Assembly: GCA_015061865.1 (NCBI GenBank)
Contig: SUVU01000008.1
Location: forward strand, 1-39,442
Reading direction: 5' to 3'
Length of the DNA: 39,442 bases
Source of the DNA: Lentisphaerota bacterium
GTDB taxonomy: Bacteria; Verrucomicrobiota; Lentisphaeria; Victivallales; Victivallaceae
The notes below the pieces were generated by a model. The model was not told the DNA's origin. It was given only the letters and a program-made list of their open reading frames with translations, and did not search any database. Of the stretch, positions 8,751 through 38,910 are shown piece by piece (position 1 is the first letter of the stretch; every line of letters starts with the position of its first letter). The position numbers and the translations under genes are program-made.

Positions 8751-9943
8751 ACTTGAAGCTCCCGGTAAATATCAGTAAGTTTGCCGGCAATGCTCTGCCA
8801 GTTGTATTTTTGAGCAGTAACTGAGCCGCAGGCGATCAAATCATCACGCAAAAATTCAATTTTTTTATACGCTTCGAGCAGACTTGCCGAATTGTTATCT
8901 TCAAATAAAATGGCATTTTTACCGTCAACAAGAAAATCTCTCAAACCTCCGACTGCAGCCGCTATGACCGGCACTTGAGCATCCAGAGCTTCCAGTGCCG
9001 CGATCCCGAATGGCTCGTGACGGCTGGGCAGAATAAAACAGTATGCGGTTTTCAATGCCTGCAACAGCTCCACACTGTCAGGAGCTAAACCTGGGATGAT
9101 GGTCACACGCCCATAAACTCCGGATTTTTCCGCATGTTTAAGGATCTCATCATAATACCACGCCGCCGTTACCGGACCGATCAGCAGCAAATGAGTATCC
9201 GAGTGCGCCGTCAGCAATTCCAGCAGGATTTTCTGATTTTTCTGATAATCGATGCGGGAGATGCACAAAATAACTTTTTTATCCTCCGGAATGAGGTATT
9301 TTGCTCTGAAATTCCCAACATCCGGCAGCTCCCGGTGCAAAATACCATTGGGGAAAAGTTCCACTTTTTTCTCCGGATAACGTTTTTGCAGTTTCCCCAC
9401 CTCCTCCCGGCTCAATGCCAACAGCAAATCAGCACCACTTTCCGGGGCATGGCGCTGTTTGCAAATCCGGTCAACGATCCCGCCGTAAGAAAATTTGTGC
9501 TTCAACGGTTTCAGCATCAGCTTCATCTCCTGCTCCGGGATAACACAGGCGCCGCCGTGCAAACTCATAATGCACGGAGTACGCAATTTTTTTCCCAAGC
9601 GGATGGAATAATTGGCGATCCTGCCTCCGGCGTGGATATGAAATATATCAAAATCCCCATTTCTCAAATACCGCAACAGCTCCGGCGCAAAAGGATTGCC
9701 GCCTTTTTTATCCAATGCCAGTTTATCTTTTGCCGGCATGGGAAAATACGGATAAAAATACGGAAAACGTTTGACTGTGATCCCGTCAATGACTTCATTG
9801 CCGACTTTATCCAATGCGGCAGTACAGATTATTTCCGGGGTCAAGCCTTGAAATTTCTGCTGCAAAGCGATATTCCAGACCACACTTTCAGTGCCGCCCC
9901 ATTCCGAAAAGGTAAAACGGCGGACAATATGCGCTATTTTCAT
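8747..9943 (-). CDS. GT4 family glycosyltransferase
   Basis: A 398-residue GT-B glycosyltransferase with WGGTESVVWN in the N-terminal glycine loop, FHIHAGGRIANYSIR, ILCISRIDYQKNQ opening the C-terminal domain, and EPFGIAALE (E-x7-E) followed by ALDAQVPVIAAAVGG. The open frame continues to 10084, but that extension lies inside the preceding GT2 gene and has no family similarity. ATG 9943 sits 8 bp after GGGGG and overlaps the GT2 stop as ATGA. It probably adds a hexose to the lipid-linked oligosaccharide. Confidence 0.88.
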   Translation of the reverse strand: MKIAHIVRRFTFSEWGGTESVVWNIALQQKFQGLTPEIICTAALDKVGNEVIDGITVKRFPYFYPYFPMPAKDKLALDKKGGNPFAPELLRYLRNGDFDIFHIHAGGRIANYSIRLGKKLRTPCIMSLHGGACVIPEQEMKLMLKPLKHKFSYGGIVDRICKQRHAPESGADLLLALSREEVGKLQKRYPEKKVELFPNGILHRELPDVGNFRAKYLIPEDKKVILCISRIDYQKNQKILLELLTAHSDTHLLLIGPVTAAWYYDEILKHAEKSGVYGRVTIIPGLAPDSVELLQALKTAYCFILPSRHEPFGIAALEALDAQVPVIAAAVGGLRDFLVDGKNAILFEDNNSASLLEAYKKIEFLRDDLIACGSVTAQKYNWQSIAGKLTDIYRELQV

Positions 9944-30271: not shown

Positions 30272-31288
30272 TCATTGCTCCTGTTCAAAGAGGTATTGGT
30301 TGGCGAGGTTGGCGACTTTCAGGGCGTGGAACTCTTTTTCGGTCACAAAACGGGCGGGAATATCCAGATGTTTGCGCCCGCCGCCGCCGCACTCGTCCAA
30401 AACCTGCCGGACGGCCTGACGCACGGAACTTTCCGCATCTTCCAGAATTATACCGCAAAGATTGAAATTCTGCGCCGCCGCCAGCGTCCACTCATTGTAA
30501 AAGCCGATCACATCCGGTTGGAATCCCTGCTCCATACACGCATCCATATAGACCCGCATGGAGTATTTGCCGTACAATATCACCGCCGGGAGCTTTTCCC
30601 CGACCAGAGCGACAGCCTGCATTTTTTCAGAATGGATCCGGAAATCCGCCGTTACGCCGCACTTTTCACAACTTTGCAGAAATACCTGTTTCGTCCGTTC
30701 ATTATCCGCGTTTTTGCCCTTGTAGAGTGCCAGGGTGATTTTTTCATGCCCCCGCTTTGCCAGATGCGCCACCGCTTCCGGCAGTGCGATGCTGTAATCC
30801 ACCGACACCGACGACAAATCATATTCACTGCGCCCGCAGAGAGTCAGCACCGGATATTTGCGCTGCACACAATTCGCCATCAACTCCGGTGGCAGTTGCG
30901 ATGACGTACACGAAGTTATCACCGCATCCATGCCCGACGCCTGAAAGTTTTTAAAAACCTCACCGGTCAGTTCCGGCGAAAACTTCACCACCTGCAACGC
31001 CACTTTGAAACCATGCCGGTCAGCTTCGTCGATCGCCGTTTCCGCCGCCGCCGCCAGAAACTGGTCGGTCAGAATATCCACCATAAAACCGATCGTCCGC
31101 ACACTGCCGCGGCGCAGTGACAGCGCCACTTCCGAGGGCTGATAACCGTAAGCGGCGGCGATTTCACGCACTTTTTCCGCCCGTTTGCGGGCATCACTGC
31201 GCTTATCTTTGGTCACTCCCGACAGTGCCCGTTCCGCCGTTTTGCGCGACACCCCGGCAAGTTCGGCGATCTCTTTTACCGTAATCAT
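30272..31288 (-). CDS. LacI-family transcriptional regulator
   Basis: A 338-residue repressor-type protein. The N-terminal helix-turn-helix is VKEIAELAGVSRKTAERALSG (4-24), with the hinge helix about 45-60 (YGYQPSEVALSLRRG). The periplasmic-binding-protein-like effector domain follows (TIGFMVDILTDQF, DAVITSCTSSQLP, GRSEYDLSSVSVDY, LAKRGHEKITL). It starts at ATG 31288 with AGGAA upstream. It is divergent from the Fe-S/glycosidase operon at 31438-38859 and is the obvious candidate to control it in response to a sugar; the ligand is unknown. Confidence 0.92.
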   Translation of the reverse strand: MITVKEIAELAGVSRKTAERALSGVTKDKRSDARKRAEKVREIAAAYGYQPSEVALSLRRGSVRTIGFMVDILTDQFLAAAAETAIDEADRHGFKVALQVVKFSPELTGEVFKNFQASGMDAVITSCTSSQLPPELMANCVQRKYPVLTLCGRSEYDLSSVSVDYSIALPEAVAHLAKRGHEKITLALYKGKNADNERTKQVFLQSCEKCGVTADFRIHSEKMQAVALVGEKLPAVILYGKYSMRVYMDACMEQGFQPDVIGFYNEWTLAAAQNFNLCGIILEDAESSVRQAVRQVLDECGGGGRKHLDIPARFVTEKEFHALKVANLANQYLFEQEQ

Positions 31289-31364: not shown

Positions 31365-31393
31365 TTGACAAAACCGCAATATGGTGCTATCTT
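31365..31393 (+). promoter_or_regulatory. Promoter of the U32/QueG-like/glycosidase operon
   Basis: Consensus TTGACA (31365-31370), 17-bp spacer, TATCTT (31388-31393). The predicted start is near 31400, inside the inverted repeat at 31393-31415. It has the most consensus-like -35 box in the window, as expected for a strong promoter held by a repressor. Confidence 0.75.
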
Positions 31394-31415
31394 AACTGTA
31401 TAACGTGGACAGTTA
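31393..31415. promoter_or_regulatory. Operator-like inverted repeat at the transcription start
   Basis: TAACTGT (31393-31399) and ACAGTTA (31409-31415) form perfect 7-bp arms around a 9-bp centre (ATAACGTGG) containing CG, as in many LacI-family sites. It begins at the last base of the -10 box and covers the start site, a position where binding would block transcription. The link to the adjacent LacI-family gene is inferred. Confidence 0.6.
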
Positions 31416-31437: not shown

Positions 31438-32463
31438 ATGAAATTTCACGTCGGTTATCAGGCGGATGAGCGATTCAAACAGGTTTTATTAACTCACGCC
31501 GCACAAATCGGTGAACTTTACTTTCCGTGGGATGATTTCACCACGGGCCGCGGTATCAACAGCCGGGAACAGCAGCGCCAGCTGGAAAACGATTTAACTG
31601 ACTTCGCCGCTGCGGGAATCAAATTTGACCTGCTGCTCAACGGCAACTGCTACGGCAGACAGGCGCTGTCACGCGCTTTTTATCAGCGCATCGGCGATAC
31701 CGTGGATATGCTCGGCAGTACCTACGGTTTGAACGCCGTCACGACCGCCAGCGTGGTCATCGCCAAATTTCTGAAAAACAATTTTCCGGAACTGAAAATC
31801 AGAGCTTCAGTAAACATGGAAATCGGTACACCGGAAGGTGTGGAATATCTGCTCGACCTTTTCGACAGTTTTTACCTCAAGCGTGAATACAATCAGGACT
31901 TGGCAGTTTTGACCAGAATGAAAAAGTTCTGTACCGATCACGGCAAACAGCTTTTTATCCTTGCCAACAGCGGCTGTCTGAATTTCTGTTCCGCCCGGAC
32001 ATTTCACGACAATCTGGTTGCCCATCAGCACGAAGTCAGCGAGATGGACAACGCTTTTGAATTCCCCGGCTTGTGCCACGAATTTCTGGCACAGGAAAGT
32101 GCGAAATCCCAACTGCTCAGCCACAGCAACTTCATCCGTCCGGAGGATGTCGCTCTTTATGAAAATCTCTGCGACGGCATGAAACTTGCCACCCGCACCA
32201 ACCCCAAACCGGCAGCAGTGGCTTCTGCGTATTTCAACGGCAGATGGCATGGCAACATTCTGGATTTGACCGAACCTGCCCACGCCAGACATTTCCTGCC
32301 GGAAATAATTTCCAACGACCTTTTCCCGGCGGATTACGCTTCCAAGCGTTTCAACTGCAGCAAAAAATGCGAAAGTTGTTCTTATTGCTGCGATATTCAA
32401 AAACAAGCAACTGTAAAATTAACAGATTTCTTAATCACTGAAGGAGCAAACGAAAAATGTTGA
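31438..32463 (+). CDS. U32-like cysteine-rich, probable [4Fe-4S] protein
   Basis: A 341-residue protein resembling the U32 'peptidase' family (UbiU/UbiV/TrhP-like TIM barrels) in LANSGCLNFCSARTFHDNLV (175-194) and FIRPEDVALYENLCDGMKLA (232-251). In UbiU/UbiV, cysteines at comparable places hold an oxygen-sensitive [4Fe-4S] cluster used in O2-independent hydroxylation. Here C180, C184, C213 and C245, plus a C-terminal set C307, C311, C314, C317, C318, could hold one or two clusters. ATG 31438, with AAGGA upstream, is preferred over GTG 31405, which lies inside the operator. The stop overlaps the next ATG by 7 bp. Substrate unknown. Confidence 0.65.
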   Translation: MKFHVGYQADERFKQVLLTHAAQIGELYFPWDDFTTGRGINSREQQRQLENDLTDFAAAGIKFDLLLNGNCYGRQALSRAFYQRIGDTVDMLGSTYGLNAVTTASVVIAKFLKNNFPELKIRASVNMEIGTPEGVEYLLDLFDSFYLKREYNQDLAVLTRMKKFCTDHGKQLFILANSGCLNFCSARTFHDNLVAHQHEVSEMDNAFEFPGLCHEFLAQESAKSQLLSHSNFIRPEDVALYENLCDGMKLATRTNPKPAAVASAYFNGRWHGNILDLTEPAHARHFLPEIISNDLFPADYASKRFNCSKKCESCSYCCDIQKQATVKLTDFLITEGANEKC

Positions 32464-33524
32464 CCAGTCAAATGATCAAAGAAGCTGCGCTCAATGCCGG
32501 TGCCGACCTGTGCGGTATCGGTGACATGGCGCGCTTCGAGGGCGCTCCGGCGGAAATGGACCCCCGGTACATTTTCCCCGAAGCAAAGTCGGTAATCGGT
32601 ATGGTTTTCCGTATTCCCCGCGGCGTACAGCGCGGGATCGAGGAAGGCACCCAGTTCTATCAGTACCCCTCCATGGCATACGGCGGCATCAATGAGATTT
32701 TTGCCCCAGCGGTGCTGTATCAGGTGGGCAAATTGATCGAAGATCACGGCTATGAAGCCGCCATCTACCGCAACACCGGCGCCAGAGGATGCGTTTCCGA
32801 CATGGACGGCTCCCCCGGCAACACCCTCTCTCCGGAAGAGCAGATCGAGGTCATCAATCAGGCGAAACGCAAAACCAACCACCACCGTTCCGTGCAGTTC
32901 ACCCGTGCAGTGCGTGATGGCCAGATGCCGCCGGATCTGCAGTTCCACTTCCGTCTGGCAGCGGTCGCCTGCGGTCTGGGCGAAATGGGCTGGAGCAAAA
33001 TGTTTCTGACCAAAGAATTCGGTCCCCTGCAGCGGGTGGCGTTTATTTTCACTGATGCCGAACTGGAACCGGATCCGCTTTACGACGGTCCCCCGATCTG
33101 CCGCCGCTGTATGGCGTGCGTGCGTGAATGTCCCGGCGGCTGCTTGAGCGCCACTGAAAGTATCAAAGTCAACGTCGGCGGCAAAGTTTGCGAATGGGGT
33201 AAACTCGATGAGTGGAAATGCTATGCTTTCTACACCCACGGCGGCAGACACTTCAACCCGTTTGTGCCGAAAGCCGTCTGGGACAAAAACGAAAACGGCG
33301 ACCTGGATCTGCTCGAAGGCAAAGCCGCAGCCAATGAAAAAGAGATCATGAAAGTCTACCGGGCGCTGGAAAAATACTTCCCGACCTGGGTGGGATACAA
33401 TATGGCAAAATGCGGCGGCTGTATCCGTGCCTGCGTCAGCATGCTGGAGAAAAAAGGCGGCTGTATGGAAGGACGCTTCAAAGAACCGCTGCGTACCGGC
33501 AAACCGTGGAAAATGGATCGCTGA
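32457..33524 (+). CDS. QueG-like double [4Fe-4S] protein, paralog 1
   Basis: A 355-residue protein related to epoxyqueuosine reductase (QueG) and similar double-cluster reductases: N-terminal AGADLCGIGDMARFEG, YIFPEAKSVIGMVFRIP, CGLGEMGWSKMFLTKEFGPLQRVAFI, then the ferredoxin-like C215-x2-C218-x2-C221-x3-C225-P. A second set of cysteines (C255, C319, C322, C326) would hold cluster 2. QueG itself uses cobalamin and reduces a modified tRNA base. Three tandem divergent copies beside a glycosidase argue against that job here. This copy has a longer middle region than the two that follow. Ribosome site AAGGAG. Confidence 0.75.
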   Translation: MLTSQMIKEAALNAGADLCGIGDMARFEGAPAEMDPRYIFPEAKSVIGMVFRIPRGVQRGIEEGTQFYQYPSMAYGGINEIFAPAVLYQVGKLIEDHGYEAAIYRNTGARGCVSDMDGSPGNTLSPEEQIEVINQAKRKTNHHRSVQFTRAVRDGQMPPDLQFHFRLAAVACGLGEMGWSKMFLTKEFGPLQRVAFIFTDAELEPDPLYDGPPICRRCMACVRECPGGCLSATESIKVNVGGKVCEWGKLDEWKCYAFYTHGGRHFNPFVPKAVWDKNENGDLDLLEGKAAANEKEIMKVYRALEKYFPTWVGYNMAKCGGCIRACVSMLEKKGGCMEGRFKEPLRTGKPWKMDR

Positions 33525-33545
33525 AACAATTTATGAGGATAAAAA

Positions 33546-34451
33546 ATGCTTACTGCTGAACTTATTAAACAAAAAGCCCGGGAACTCGGTGCCGCCGCTG
33601 TCGGCATTGCCGACATCTCCTGCTTTGCCGATGCGCCGCTGCAGCGCGACCCCAAAAGTATTCTCCCCAACGCCAAATGCGTGATCGGTTTCCTGTTCCG
33701 GGTGCCGCGTGCGCTTTACAAGGTCATGGCGGAGCAACGTCAGTTTTTCCAGTATACCCAGATCGGAGTCAAATATATTGACGAAGACCTCAGCGAAATC
33801 TTTTTGCTGAAAATGGGTGCTATGATCGAAAACGAGGGCTATGACGCCTGCTTGCAGCGCAATGTCTCCAACTTGCGGATCAAAGGCGACCACTCCACCA
33901 ACCCGGAACTGGTTGACACCTATGAACTTGAGCACGCCGAACCGGTTGCCCCCGGAAAACCGGCTCCGGATGTGATCATGGACTTCAATTTTGCGGCTCA
34001 GGCGTGCGGCCTGGGTGCGGTCGGCATGTCCGGACACTTTATTGCTCCGGAACTCGGCCCCTTTGTCCGCATGGCGTTTATCGTCACCGATGCGCCGCTT
34101 GCCTGCGACAAACCGTTCACCGGTACGCTCTGCGACAACTGCGGCGAATGTGTTTCCGCCTGCCCCGGTCATGCGATCAGTGAAAACGGCACGGACTCCT
34201 GGCAGTGCGCCGTCTACTATCGCGGTGCGCACAAATCCAACCCGTTTATGAAAGACGATTGTCTGAAAGACCGTCCGGATCGTGCCGCTATCATCTCCGG
34301 CGAAAAACACTTTTCCAGGGAAGAAGCCCGTGAGATTTACAAAGAACTGGACTTCCTGCCCAGCCGCCCGACCGGATATATCCCGTGCATTTGCGGCAAA
34401 GCGTGCGACATGGTCTGTTATAAACATCTGAAATCGAAAGGCATCTTATGA
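33546..34451 (+). CDS. QueG-like double [4Fe-4S] protein, paralog 2
   Basis: A 301-residue paralog of the preceding gene. AQACGLGAVGMSGHFIAPEL (151-170) and GPFVRMAFIVTDAPL match the QueG core. Cluster 1 is C196, C199, C202, C206 (CDNCGECVSACPG). Cluster 2 is probably formed by C221 with C283, C287, C291 (CICGKACDMVC). It is cytoplasmic, with no signal peptide. The ribosome site GAGGAT stands before ATG 33546, 21 bp after the previous stop. It is probably an electron-transfer or reductive enzyme; substrate unknown. Confidence 0.75.
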   Translation: MLTAELIKQKARELGAAAVGIADISCFADAPLQRDPKSILPNAKCVIGFLFRVPRALYKVMAEQRQFFQYTQIGVKYIDEDLSEIFLLKMGAMIENEGYDACLQRNVSNLRIKGDHSTNPELVDTYELEHAEPVAPGKPAPDVIMDFNFAAQACGLGAVGMSGHFIAPELGPFVRMAFIVTDAPLACDKPFTGTLCDNCGECVSACPGHAISENGTDSWQCAVYYRGAHKSNPFMKDDCLKDRPDRAAIISGEKHFSREEAREIYKELDFLPSRPTGYIPCICGKACDMVCYKHLKSKGIL

Positions 34452-35383
34452 ACGAGCTGAAAGCCAAACTCACTGCGGCGATGACCGCTGCAGGTGCCGA
34501 TATTGTGGTCTGCGGCAACGTTGAACGTTTCCGTGATCCGGCGGTCAAAAAACTTTTTCCCGAAACCAAAACCGTGATTTGTGCGGCGTTCCGCCAGTTG
34601 CGCGGCTCCCGTCGCGGCGTGGAAGACGGCACGACTTACTATCAGTATACCACGTCCGTGGAAACTCTGGAAGAGGTCGTCATGCCCCAGGCGCTGCTCC
34701 GCGGCTGTGCCGTGTTGGAGGAAGCCGGCTTCGATGCCATGCCCCAGCGCCGTCCCATGATGATCTCTGCTGATGAAAATGAGACCATTTTTGAAACGGA
34801 CTACGCCGAAGTTTACCGTGGTGTCAAAGCCGAAACGCTGTTGGATTTCGACCTTTGCGCCGTGGATGCCGGATTGGGAGAAAAAGGTTTCTCCGGCTCC
34901 ATTCTCACCGATGATTTCGGTCCCTGCCAGAGATGGGTATTTATCCTCACCGATGCCGAATTGCCCGCCGATCCGGTCGTAGAACCGCATTTGTGCGATA
35001 ACTGCAAAGAGTGTTTGCGTGCCTGCCCCGGTCATGCGCTGGATGAAAACGGCAAACGTGATTCCTGGCAGTGTGCGGCGTATTACAAAGGCGCCAACCG
35101 CAGCAAAAACCCCTTCATGCCTCCGAATGCGTTTGCTGACGATCCGGAGCGTTTGAAAATCATCGCCGGCGAAGCTGACCTGTCCATGGAACACGCCAAA
35201 GAGATCATTGATCAGATCCGCTTTTATCCGCCGATCAAACACGCATTTGTTGCCAGTATGTGCGGCAGAGCATGCGATACCGCCTGCTATGTCCATCTGG
35301 AAGAAAAAGGAGTTTTGAAACGGAAATTCAAAACTCCGTTCCGCAAACGTCCGGTCTGGTCACTCTCTCTGGAAGATAAATAA
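34448..35383 (+). CDS. QueG-like double [4Fe-4S] protein, paralog 3
   Basis: A 311-residue paralog of the two preceding genes. AGLGEKGFSGSILTDDFGPC (141-160) is the QueG-like core. Cluster 1 is C183, C186, C189, C193 (CDNCKECLRACPGHA). Cluster 2 is probably C209 with C272, C276, C280 (CGRACDTAC). It shares with copies 1 and 2 a Y-Q-Y motif near residue 65-70 and the SWQC-type link between clusters. It overlaps copy 2 as ATGA, indicating coupled translation and perhaps a complex. Confidence 0.75.
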   Translation: MNELKAKLTAAMTAAGADIVVCGNVERFRDPAVKKLFPETKTVICAAFRQLRGSRRGVEDGTTYYQYTTSVETLEEVVMPQALLRGCAVLEEAGFDAMPQRRPMMISADENETIFETDYAEVYRGVKAETLLDFDLCAVDAGLGEKGFSGSILTDDFGPCQRWVFILTDAELPADPVVEPHLCDNCKECLRACPGHALDENGKRDSWQCAAYYKGANRSKNPFMPPNAFADDPERLKIIAGEADLSMEHAKEIIDQIRFYPPIKHAFVASMCGRACDTACYVHLEEKGVLKRKFKTPFRKRPVWSLSLEDK

Positions 35384-35394
35384 GGTTTCCCCTG

Positions 35395-38300
35395 ATGAAA
35401 AATGCTGAAATAACCTGGAGTTTGATGCACCCTACTCCGTTGGATCCGGAGTACATGCATCAGCTCATTGCGAAGTCCAAAGAATACCGGGTGGACAGTT
35501 TTGAGATCTGCGCCCAGTGCCATACGCCTTACGGCGGCTTGGACGGCTTGATCAATTACCGTGAATATCCGCACGCTTTTGCGAACTGGGATCAGGAAAA
35601 AGTTGCTGACACCCAACAGCGCATGAATGAAGTGCTGAGGATCGCCCATGCCGCCGGCAAGCCGGTTTACTACTGGCACCGGGAAGTCATGGTGCCGCCG
35701 GGGTTGATCGAGGACATTCCGGAACTGCTGGATGAGAACGGTGAATTCAATCTGCTGGGCGAAGCATTTGCCGATTTGATCCGCTATAAAATCGACCGGG
35801 CATTCGCCGCCGCACCGGAACTGGATGGATTGGTATTGAGTTTGACCGAAGCGGATTTCTCTGCGATCCACAATTCCAATACCCGCAAATATCCGCCGGT
35901 GGAAGTGGTGAGTTTCATCATCAGCATTTTTGCATCGGAACTGGAGAAGCGCAACAAACGCTTTATCATGCGTTCATTCGGCTCGATTGCACAGGATTAT
36001 GAAGATATTCTCGCCGGGGCTGAAAAACTTGCCGGCAAACACAAATTTGAGATCGAGACCAAAATCACACCGTATGATTTTGATCCGTTTCTGCCGAAAA
36101 ATCCGTTTCTGCGCTCCAGCGCCAATTTCACCCTCTCTGCCGAGTGTGAAGTCGTCGGCGAATTCATGGGTCAGGGCAATATGCCGTTTGAACACGTCCA
36201 CAATCTGGTGCGTTATGTCCGGGAAGGTCAGGAAGCCGGAGTGGATCGTTTCGTCATCCGCATGGACAGACGCGGCAACTGCATTTTTGACATTTACGAG
36301 ATCAATTACTACGCTTACAGCCGGGCTTTGGAAAATCCGGACATCACCGCTGATGAGATCCGGCAGGAGTGGTATGATAAACATTATCCAGCCGCCGTCC
36401 GTGATGCCTATATCGAATTGGACAAAATCGGTTGGGAAATGGTTTGTAAAACCTATTTCATCGACAAACAAGTCCTCTTTCACGGCAATTATGCGATGAA
36501 ATATATCAAAGCCGGTTTCATTTTTGCACTGTTCCGCAATGGAGTTACGCTGGAAAACGGCAAAGACATCTGGTCCATCCTCACCGACCGCCCTGCTCCC
36601 GGCAGAGCTGCGATCCTGCGGGAAAAAGATGAAGCCGTCGCCTGTGCCGACCGGGGGTTGGAAATCTGCCGCAGCATCAACATGACCGACGACGATTTCA
36701 GGCTCCGGTTGTGGCAGAATGCGGTGGTCGTCACCCGCTGTGTAAGAGAACTGGTGCGCTGTATTGCAACATACTTTGATGAAATGGATAACTCCGGTGA
36801 CGGCACGCTCCTGAAACAGCAGGTTGCCGCCAGTTTGGCTGAATTTGACCGCCTTGCCGGACACAAAGTGGAAATCCGGAAACGCGAAGTCATCAACGGA
36901 CTTGAACACCGCTTGAAAGAATACCGCCGTTCCATTGAGGAAATCTGCATCGAACCGCTTGCGGCGATTTGTCAGGCGTTGCCGGAAGAATTTGCCGCAG
37001 AGTGCGCCGCCCGCAAAAAGTTTTTAACTGATTGCGTGGATGGCATCATCCTCGGCGGCATTTACGACGATTACCGGATGTACCGTTATATGCACGGTTC
37101 GCACTCGGTACTGCGGAACGGTTTGCCGGGACGGTGGGCAGGCAACCGGGTCTTCCCCAACGGCTTTATTGAGGTAACCGTCAAACGCGGCGATGATCTT
37201 TACATTTACGGTGATATTTCCGAAACCCGGGAATTTGTCGTCTGTATTGACGGCGATCATCGCATTTATGCCCGGTTCAATGACGAGGGCTGCTGGAAAC
37301 TGCCGGTCGGTGCCGATACTGAAACCATGACGCTCCGTCTGGAAAAAAGCGGCTCCGAATACCCGATGTTTTACGCCGTCGTCACCCGCAAAAATCCGGA
37401 ACTGGCAACATTCAGTTACTCGATCTGCGAAGACGAACTGGATGAAACCACCGTGCCGGAACCGGTGTTTGACGAAAAACCGGAATGGCTCGACCTCTAT
37501 TACGAAGCGTGGCAGGAGGCGTATGACCACATATTCCACTGCCCGGTGGCGCCGGTAAAAACCTACATGAATGAAGGCATCCGCATCCACAAAATCTGGA
37601 TTTGGGATACCTGTTTCATGGTGCAGTTCTGCCGTTACGCCGCTTCGGTTTTCCCCGGCTTGCAGAGTTTGGACAACTTCTACAAACTGATGCACGACGG
37701 TGAAAAATCGGTCATCAAAATCCATATCCCGGACAATCCGCCGTTGTTTGCGTGGACGGAGTATGAATACTTCAAACACACCGGCGATGTGGCACGGGTA
37801 AAAGAAATCCTGTTGGAAAAACGCTATCTGCAAAAACACTTTGAATGGCTCTACACCGTCAATCCGGGCGAGTTGTACGACTATTCAGACAGTCCGACGG
37901 CGGCAAAATTTGTCCCCGGCAAAGGATTTCTGTGGGGTTGCGGCAGAGCCGGCATGGACAACTCTCCCCGGGGTGAAGACGATCAGCGGTCGATTTATTT
38001 CGTTGACCTCACCGCCCAGCAGGGATTGAGTGCGCTTTACATTGCCAAACTGGCAGAGGCGATCGGTGAAAAAGCCCTTGCCGACGAATATTACGGCAAG
38101 TTTGAGGAGCTGAAAAAGTTTGTCAACGAGCGTTTCTGGTCGGACTCCGACCGGATGTATTTTGACCGCAAAGTCGATGAAAGCGGTTTCAGCAAAGTGC
38201 TGACTCCGGCATCCATGTGGCCGATGCTAGCGGAAATATGTTCTGATGAACAGAGTAAAGATCTGGCGGCGGCATTGGCAGACCCGAACCGTTTGGGCGG

Positions 38301-38859
38301 TGAAAGAGTTGTTCCCAGTGTCAGCCGGGATGACAACCGTTACTTTGATCCAACGGGCGGCTACTGGCGCGGCGGCATCTGGATGCCCAAAGTTTACATG
38401 ACCGTCAAAGGTTTGGAGAAATACGGTCATTGGAAACTGGCGGACGAGATCGCTGAAAAAATCATCCGCCAGCAGTACAATACCTGGCGCAATTTTGAAC
38501 CGCACACGATCTGGGAATGTTACTCCCCGACCGAAGACAAACCGTCTACGGATAAAAAAGGCCGTTATGCCCGTCAGGAATTCTGCGGCTGGTCAGCGTT
38601 GGGGCCGATTTCGCTGTTTATCGAGAATATTCTCGGCATCCGGGAAGTTAATGCCCTGAAAAACCGGATCGTCTGGACGCCGCGCCGAACGCAGCGCAAC
38701 GGTATCAAAAATCTGAAAATGGGCGGCAAAAACTTTTCGCTTATTGCTTATCCGGAACGCAACGAAGCGGAAATCGCTGCCGAACAGCCGTTTACCCTCT
38801 GTCTCAATGGCAAAGAAATCTCATTGCCGGCAGGCAAATCCATTGTTAAACTGGATTAA
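35395..38859 (+). CDS. Two-module glycoside hydrolase with C-terminal MGH1-like (alpha/alpha)6 domain
   Basis: An 1154-residue cytoplasmic protein without a signal peptide. The N-terminal 550 or so residues begin with a TIM-barrel-like part (VDSFEICAQCHTPYGGLDG, GKPVYYWHREVMVP, LDGLVLSLTEADFS) and continue as a helical region, resembling uncharacterised GH67/DUF4838-like domains. After a beta-rich linker, residues about 690-1130 form a GH63/mannosylglycerate-hydrolase-like domain: WIWDT (735-739, D738), GRAGMDNSPR (850-859, likely acid D855) and WECYSP (1040-1045, likely base E1041). Retaining both motifs suggests activity on an alpha-linked glucosyl or mannosyl substrate. It is the last gene of the LacI-adjacent operon, 11 bp after paralog 3, with a weak ribosome site. 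Confidence 0.78.
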   Translation: MKNAEITWSLMHPTPLDPEYMHQLIAKSKEYRVDSFEICAQCHTPYGGLDGLINYREYPHAFANWDQEKVADTQQRMNEVLRIAHAAGKPVYYWHREVMVPPGLIEDIPELLDENGEFNLLGEAFADLIRYKIDRAFAAAPELDGLVLSLTEADFSAIHNSNTRKYPPVEVVSFIISIFASELEKRNKRFIMRSFGSIAQDYEDILAGAEKLAGKHKFEIETKITPYDFDPFLPKNPFLRSSANFTLSAECEVVGEFMGQGNMPFEHVHNLVRYVREGQEAGVDRFVIRMDRRGNCIFDIYEINYYAYSRALENPDITADEIRQEWYDKHYPAAVRDAYIELDKIGWEMVCKTYFIDKQVLFHGNYAMKYIKAGFIFALFRNGVTLENGKDIWSILTDRPAPGRAAILREKDEAVACADRGLEICRSINMTDDDFRLRLWQNAVVVTRCVRELVRCIATYFDEMDNSGDGTLLKQQVAASLAEFDRLAGHKVEIRKREVINGLEHRLKEYRRSIEEICIEPLAAICQALPEEFAAECAARKKFLTDCVDGIILGGIYDDYRMYRYMHGSHSVLRNGLPGRWAGNRVFPNGFIEVTVKRGDDLYIYGDISETREFVVCIDGDHRIYARFNDEGCWKLPVGADTETMTLRLEKSGSEYPMFYAVVTRKNPELATFSYSICEDELDETTVPEPVFDEKPEWLDLYYEAWQEAYDHIFHCPVAPVKTYMNEGIRIHKIWIWDTCFMVQFCRYAASVFPGLQSLDNFYKLMHDGEKSVIKIHIPDNPPLFAWTEYEYFKHTGDVARVKEILLEKRYLQKHFEWLYTVNPGELYDYSDSPTAAKFVPGKGFLWGCGRAGMDNSPRGEDDQRSIYFVDLTAQQGLSALYIAKLAEAIGEKALADEYYGKFEELKKFVNERFWSDSDRMYFDRKVDESGFSKVLTPASMWPMLAEICSDEQSKDLAAALADPNRLGGERVVPSVSRDDNRYFDPTGGYWRGGIWMPKVYMTVKGLEKYGHWKLADEIAEKIIRQQYNTWRNFEPHTIWECYSPTEDKPSTDKKGRYARQEFCGWSALGPISLFIENILGIREVNALKNRIVWTPRRTQRNGIKNLKMGGKNFSLIAYPERNEAEIAAEQPFTLCLNGKEISLPAGKSIVKLD

Positions 38860-38877
38860 AGCATCACCAACACACGC

Positions 38878-38910
38878 CGGAGGCGGGAAAATTTCCCGCC
38901 TCCGTTTTTA
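38878..38910 (+). terminator. Strong intrinsic terminator of the glycosidase operon
   Basis: A perfect 13-bp stem (38878-38890 with 38892-38904, CGGAGGCGGGAAA) with a minimal central loop is followed by TTTTTA. It begins 18 bp after the glycosidase stop codon. Confidence 0.93.

Follow-up and report, generated by a model that had tools for sequence, protein, structure and literature searches.

A U32-like protein and three QueG-like paralogs form a four-gene cassette shared across phyla and, in a Lentisphaerota bacterium, precede a glycosidase in a LacI-flanked operon

We analyzed a 39,442-nt stretch of DNA from a Lentisphaerota bacterium (hereafter the window, contig C114 of a 2.35-Mb draft genome in 165 contigs that is 76% complete), in which five open, same-strand genes lie within 31438-38859 (+) with neighbors overlapping or lying no more than 21 nt apart. 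The first encodes a U32-like protein (31438-32463, +, ATG start, 341 aa) and is followed by three paralogs of the QueG/RdhA superfamily, Q1 (32457-33524, +, 355 aa, overlapping the U32-like gene by 7 nt), Q2 (33546-34451, +, 301 aa, 21 nt after Q1), and Q3 (34448-35383, +, 311 aa, overlapping Q2 by 4 nt), and by a two-module glycoside hydrolase (GH; 35395-38859, +, 1154 aa, 11 nt after Q3). The conserved unit at this locus is four genes, U32-Q1-Q2-Q3, and not five.

A sigma-70-type promoter, recognized by consensus match only (TTGACA-17-TATCTT, 31365-31393, +), precedes the operon and is abutted by a predicted LacI-type operator palindrome of 23 bp, TAACTGTATAACGTGGACAGTTA (31393-31415, +; arms AACTGT/ACAGTT). 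Divergent from the operon lies a LacI-family regulator gene (30272-31288, -), whose product scores 29.3 bits against PF00532 (cut-off 22.2) and 25.2 against PF00356 (cut-off 27). After the GH gene stands an intrinsic-terminator-like hairpin (38878-38904, +; 12-bp stem, T tail); terminator-like matches in the region numbered 8 against a shuffle mean of 11.9, that is, not above expectation, and promoter-like matches 10 against 6.0. An earlier, sequence-only reading of this DNA had described five tightly packed genes in one transcript under LacI control. The shared strand, the short gaps, and the flanking promoter and hairpin agree with the single transcript, and the palindrome favors the regulator: across seven LacI-U32 intergenic regions its 6-bp arms are exact in four and carry one mismatch in three, and an exact copy also lies upstream of U32 in two loci with no adjacent recognized LacI gene (L041 and L048). 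A pattern made from the window's palindrome and its orthologs, allowing up to 3 mismatches, matched once in the window and in 1 of 100 shuffles. With a LacI-type gene and a conserved, predicted palindromic operator at the promoter, the locus has the layout of a putative LacI-regulated catabolic operon. A defense system was considered and rejected, none of the five proteins having a PADLOC match.

A U32 search of the 197 genomes of the class matched 107, and 41 U32 loci were read, comprising the window and 40 others, mostly best matches, one being a paralog from the genome of the window. Scanning genomes with Q1 yielded 200 relatives, of which the best 80 were kept; together with the window and locus L058 these make a sample of 82 loci that was selected by Q1 and whose members are not independent. 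Partner genes were called by stop-to-stop hidden Markov model search and counted among loci that no contig end interrupts. On this footing Q2 accompanies Q1 in 80/80 loci, Q3 in 76/76 (in one case as a fusion with Q2), and U32 in 75/80; all four genes are present as separate frames in 68 loci, 67 of which share the order U32-Q1-Q2-Q3. The remaining locus (L049:9362-13300, identical to L094) holds the only complete cassette seen in which U32 comes last, behind Q3, and not first, and the Q2-Q3 fusion is one 615-aa reading frame in a single genome (L062:11183-13030, identical to L108). The GH type of the window, in contrast, lies near just 7 of the 82 loci, the window included, and near none from Bacillota. 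We therefore rejected a conserved set of five: the co-occurrence of all five families, proposed as a check by the sequence-only reading, extends to four of them, and a role for the glycosidase as an essential member is not supported. Gene order, the one fusion, and co-inheritance support the prediction that the four proteins assemble and function together. No paper describing this combination was found in the literature searched, which left out most subscription journals.

By record label, the 80 Q1 relatives come from Lentisphaeria, Opitutales, Kiritimatiellae, Planctomycetia, and Clostridia, and at least 34 of their records name a herbivore gut as source. Presence within the class is patchy, with strong cassette matches in 34 of the 197 genomes. 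Across the 67 complete loci, the divergence of each of the four proteins, taken as pairwise distance, correlates with that of the others (r 0.63-0.87, against a maximum of 0.13 in 500 permutations). Median identity between loci of the Planctomycetes-Verrucomicrobia-Chlamydiae (PVC) group and of Bacillota (30 and 37 loci) is 77% for Q1, 60% for Q2, 54% for Q3, and 46% for U32. Recent transfer across phyla was rejected as the cause of the Q1 identity because only 16-47% of fourfold-degenerate third positions are identical when the window is set beside four Clostridia loci, compared with 22-55% for eight PVC loci (both figures standing without a saturation baseline); Q1 thus appears strongly constrained instead of recently exchanged.

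Each of the three paralogs carries eight cysteines predicted to hold two [4Fe-4S] clusters. In Q1 these are C215, C218, C221, C225, C255, C319, C322, and C326, seven of them present in 78/78 aligned sequences and C326 in 77/78; in Q2, C196, C199, C202, C206, C221, C283, C287, and C291 are each kept in 64-65 of 65, with an additional C281 in 62; and in Q3, C183, C186, C189, C193, C209, C272, C276, and C280 are all present in 72/72. The description of these proteins as QueG-like holds at the superfamily level, with scores of 90 (Q1), 100 (Q2), and 123 (Q3) against a QueG profile made of TIGR00276 hits, mostly under the family cut-off, plus E. coli QueG (highest score in 30 shuffles 24.5, a control for Q1 only), and with a shared GLG loop and eight-cysteine double-cluster pattern. 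A close equation with QueG finds no support: against TIGR00276 the three score 24.1, 46.6, and 40.5 bits, all below the cut-off of 200, and about 60 residues separate the fifth ligand from the sixth, compared with 25 in the S. thermophilus enzyme (ligand positions and QueG domain bounds as given in the accessible part of PMC4646009). Moreover, Q1, Q2, and Q3 end 29, 10, and 31 residues after their last cluster cysteine, so the C-terminal helical-repeat domain of QueG is absent, and the three paralogs stand side by side. Of the DYH-plus-Asp active site of QueG, no DYH was seen at the aligned positions, where the N-terminal alignment is weak.

The missing domain speaks against the idea that the cassette is an RNA or tRNA modification system lying in sugar loci by chance. 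In favor of such a role, both superfamilies include RNA-modifying enzymes, namely QueG and the U32 enzymes TrhP and RlhA (accessible parts of PMC4646009 and PMC11574389), and QueG exceeds its cut-off in only 6 of the 197 class genomes; the patchy distribution, the conserved predicted operator, and the LacI and AraC neighbors described below run counter to it, and we consider it very unlikely. Beyond the cassette, 172 class genomes have a QueG match at E 0.001 or better despite those 6 above the cut-off, several of them with 10, which represents an expansion of uncharacterized QueG-like proteins.

Resemblance to reductive dehalogenases is of a similar kind. Profile searches of the PDB with Q1-Q3 hit chains of RdhA and QueG, for the most part in the cluster module and with dehalogenase chains on top; the RdhA family TIGR02486 is the top NCBIfam match for all three (38.4, 50.3, and 41.9 bits for Q1, Q2, and Q3), and Q1 and Q3 share the GLGE motif with RdhA/PceA. 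These matches would suit a dehalogenase-like function in detoxification or respiration, but the scores fall far under the cut-off of 160.35 bits, neither a membrane-anchor gene nor a Tat-type signal as in RdhA/PceA was noticed by eye (no search was aimed at them), and sugar regulators occur at the loci, all of which makes this function most improbable.

The U32 label of the first gene is remote but real. Its product scores 14.6 bits against PF01136, under the gathering cut-off of 22.4, and 6 of 35 homologs match that family at E 0.01 or better (best E 0.0012); profile against profile, however, it reaches 55.2 with known U32 proteins, compared with 22.7 for the highest of 30 column shuffles and with negatives of 18.8 for QueG and 18.0 for Q1. 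A profile search of the PDB gave no significant match (U32 chain 5d88, at E 0.29, ranked below an unrelated chain at E 0.17), and single-sequence comparison was weak with UbiU and nil with UbiV. In an alignment of rows of 270 bits or more, C71, C180, C184, and C213 are invariant (73/73), and an extra C-terminal C-x3-C-x2-C-x2-C has its four cysteines in 48-50 of the 73. The invariant spacing, C-x108-C-x3-C-x28-C, fits neither U32 pattern published in the accessible part of PMC6747719 (CX6CX15CX3/4C, and CXnCX12CX3C for UbiV). With UbiU/UbiV, TrhP, and RlhA the protein thus shares remote profile homology and four invariant cysteines, one far upstream as in UbiV, and differs from them in cysteine spacing, in an optional second cysteine group, and in its QueG-like partners. 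Judged by its profile it is a remote U32 relative, and a close equation with UbiU/V finds no support; the sequence-only reading's count of four Fe-S proteins fares better, as Fe-S-type cysteines are conserved in all four.

Among the 41 U32 loci, the closer homologs sit with Q1, Q2, and Q3. In 11 more distant loci (39-44% identity; L037 and L067-L076) a single QueG-like gene adjoins in 10 (none in L075), and an IclR-type gene lies between the pair in 4. In a further 20 loci (32-40% identity to the window copy), some on short contigs, the U32-like genes mostly stand singly or as tandem arrays; QueG-like genes adjoin in 2 of the 20 (L179 and L188), and one lies about 4.6 kb away in L177. Two observations on these relatives may be recorded here. 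The genome of the window has a second system on contig C113 (L037:7904-10698), with a U32-like gene, one QueG-like gene, and an IclR regulator between them, and at L170:8295-14300, L171, and L172, in some relatives, three or four U32-like genes stand in tandem with no QueG-like gene.

Neighboring genes were counted on both strands from 4.5 kb before to 7.5 kb after Q1 in the 82 loci, which divide 41/41 between PVC and Bacillota by record label (L111 and L114 being put with PVC). A LacI relative is near 20 loci, all counted as PVC, and AraC is near 34, of which 33 are Bacillota; Gfo/Idh/MocA proteins follow with 17, small cupin-like proteins with 14, and DUF5696 with 10, and aldose epimerase, GH28, GH116, heparinase-type, xylose-isomerase-type, DUF4838, and MFS proteins stand beside one or a few loci. 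Such regulators and varied carbohydrate neighbors suggest that the module often accompanies carbohydrate loci while the hydrolase varies, in line with the sugar context that the sequence-only reading had assumed. The small cupin-like protein, recognized by eye, occurs in L148 (10062-10427, a copy without Pfam match) and in 13 other Bacillota loci, its gene being placed between Q1 and Q2 in 12 of the 14. Downstream of the cassette in L063 there is a match to a group II intron domain (9426-9566).

In the window, the hydrolase is itself a composite. Its C-terminal module matches PF22422 (108.6 bits, E 6.7e-31, above the Pfam cut-off) and is GH63/GH37/MGH1-like, with what we take to be an (alpha/alpha)6-type fold; matches in the PDB are GH63-type glucosidases and trehalase. 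It shares this catalytic-type module with glycosidases of those types and differs from them in being fused to an unassigned N-terminal module, for which no significant Pfam or PDB match was obtained. A firm assignment of the latter to GH67 was rejected, the only hint being GH67C at E 0.044 in 1 of 6 members. No signal peptide was evident by eye. That hint, together with the herbivore-gut sources and with DUF4838 proteins near two cassettes (L052 and L062/L108), a domain presumably tied to glucuronidases, would fit a module that O-demethylates methylated sugars such as 4-O-methyl-glucuronate, using a Co(I) or Fe-S acceptor, before or after glycoside cleavage. We think this distinctly unlikely, as no corrinoid protein or corrinoid methyltransferase was found in 68 neighbor scans covering part of the neighbors, and we know of no class III enzyme that demethylates.

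Instead, we tentatively propose, at somewhat short of an even chance, that U32, Q1, Q2, and Q3 are inherited together as a cytoplasmic enzyme system with several [4Fe-4S] clusters, probably a complex, which performs O2-independent redox chemistry on a sugar, uronate, or glycoside. We infer the reaction, cobamide content, and substrate of the module as follows. The substrate would be one taken up by anaerobic plant-fiber degraders; Q1, by far the most constrained of the four, would be the catalytic subunit on a class III (QueG/RdhA) scaffold, perhaps with a base-off cobamide; Q2 and Q3 would be obligate partner subunits, providing electron supply or composite active sites; and, if UbiU/UbiV are a guide, the U32-like barrel may transfer oxygen or do chemistry on the substrate. 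In the genome of the window, this system might work beside the cytoplasmic two-module GH, for example by altering a substituent that blocks glycoside cleavage, with the GH and other neighbors acting as interchangeable front-end enzymes that vary by substrate. Chemistry that modifies or removes a sugar substituent, as the sequence-only reading had envisaged, would be compatible with this scheme. A narrower version, in which a sugar-acting class III cobamide complex of three obligate paralogs and a new U32 subfamily installs or removes an oxygen substituent without O2, is a serious candidate that we nevertheless regard as rather unlikely.

Several observations weigh against this proposal. In 5/80 loci, including that of the isolate Oligosphaera ethanolica (L104), no U32 gene lies on the strand of the cassette within 4.5 kb. 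As regards substrate identity, the commonest catabolic neighbor is found in just 17/82 loci, some neighbors are unrelated to sugars (gyrase in L041, argininosuccinate lyase in L116, a leucine-rich repeat protein in L127), and many scanned neighbor proteins have no Pfam match. As regards catalysis, the column of the class III tyrosine, the catalytic residue of RdhA/PceA, reads F47/Y28/H2/A1 across 78 Q1 sequences in a weak N-terminal alignment, and the matching column is not tyrosine in Q2 (65 rows) or Q3 (72 rows), where the N-terminal alignment is uncertain. According to the accessible part of PMC4646009, cobamide binding in class III enzymes cannot be read from a sequence motif. Finally, the cobalamin adenosyltransferase BtuR shows no enrichment among cassette carriers, being present in 11/34 strong carriers and 74/163 others among the 197 class genomes (two genomes with Q1 at 54-58% identity were placed among the others), and a positive link between the two was rejected.

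The poorly kept tyrosine is one of the grounds for supposing that Q1-Q3 no longer carry cobamide and serve purely as [4Fe-4S] proteins of electron transfer or activation, driving the U32-like enzyme as the sole chemist. Two others are that BtuR occurs in 0/11 same-genus cassette carriers (2/23 other genus members have it, and one of these two, G160, with a U32 gene of the cassette type at the edge of a contig, may be a carrier that escaped the count), and that the U32-like genes of 32-40% identity mostly lack an adjacent QueG-like gene. Set against these, Q1 is far more conserved than U32, the opposite of what a generic electron donor would lead one to expect, cassettes without a nearby U32 exist, and a B12-binding-domain protein is present in 11/11 same-genus carriers (and in 21/23 other members of the genus), so that cobamide is probably available to them. 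We consider this alternative unlikely, if by no means negligible. The BtuR pattern is compatible with a nonadenosylated cobamide or with none and does not decide between them. No cobalamin riboswitch was found near the cassette in seven sources scanned at the gathering threshold; a candidate in the window's own genome was rejected at 25 bits, below the gathering score of 31.5, with no B12 gene beside it by eye. The MetH activation domain PF02965, with weak matches in 2/11 same-genus carriers, was uninformative.

By sequence, each component belongs to a known superfamily as a divergent member, and any novelty would lie in their combination. The accessible part of PMC4646009 mentions no reaction of class III cobalamin/[4Fe-4S] enzymes besides epoxide reduction and dehalogenation and allows that further families may exist that are not recognizable by motif, and a review of gut metalloenzymes, in its accessible part, calls the U32 family largely uncharacterized (PMC11574389). 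The cassette, whose three paralogs are passed on as a unit in different phyla together with a divergent U32 protein and sugar regulators, is a concrete candidate for a new class III family. Such a family would tie anaerobic redox enzymology to plant-glycan breakdown in herbivore guts. If the narrower version of our proposal were true, it would add a third kind of chemistry to the QueG/RdhA scaffold, distributed over PVC bacteria and Clostridia that live in such guts and at other anoxic sites; the cassette also offers a testable setting for U32 roles beyond ubiquinone and RNA.

Elsewhere in the window, a 582-aa protein (1210-2958, +) is DUF4838/glucuronidase-like by eye. The stretch 3047-28886 (-) likewise has the appearance of an exopolysaccharide/exosortase-like cluster, within which two small proteins carry a terminal GQPLPG-hydrophobic-basic tail.

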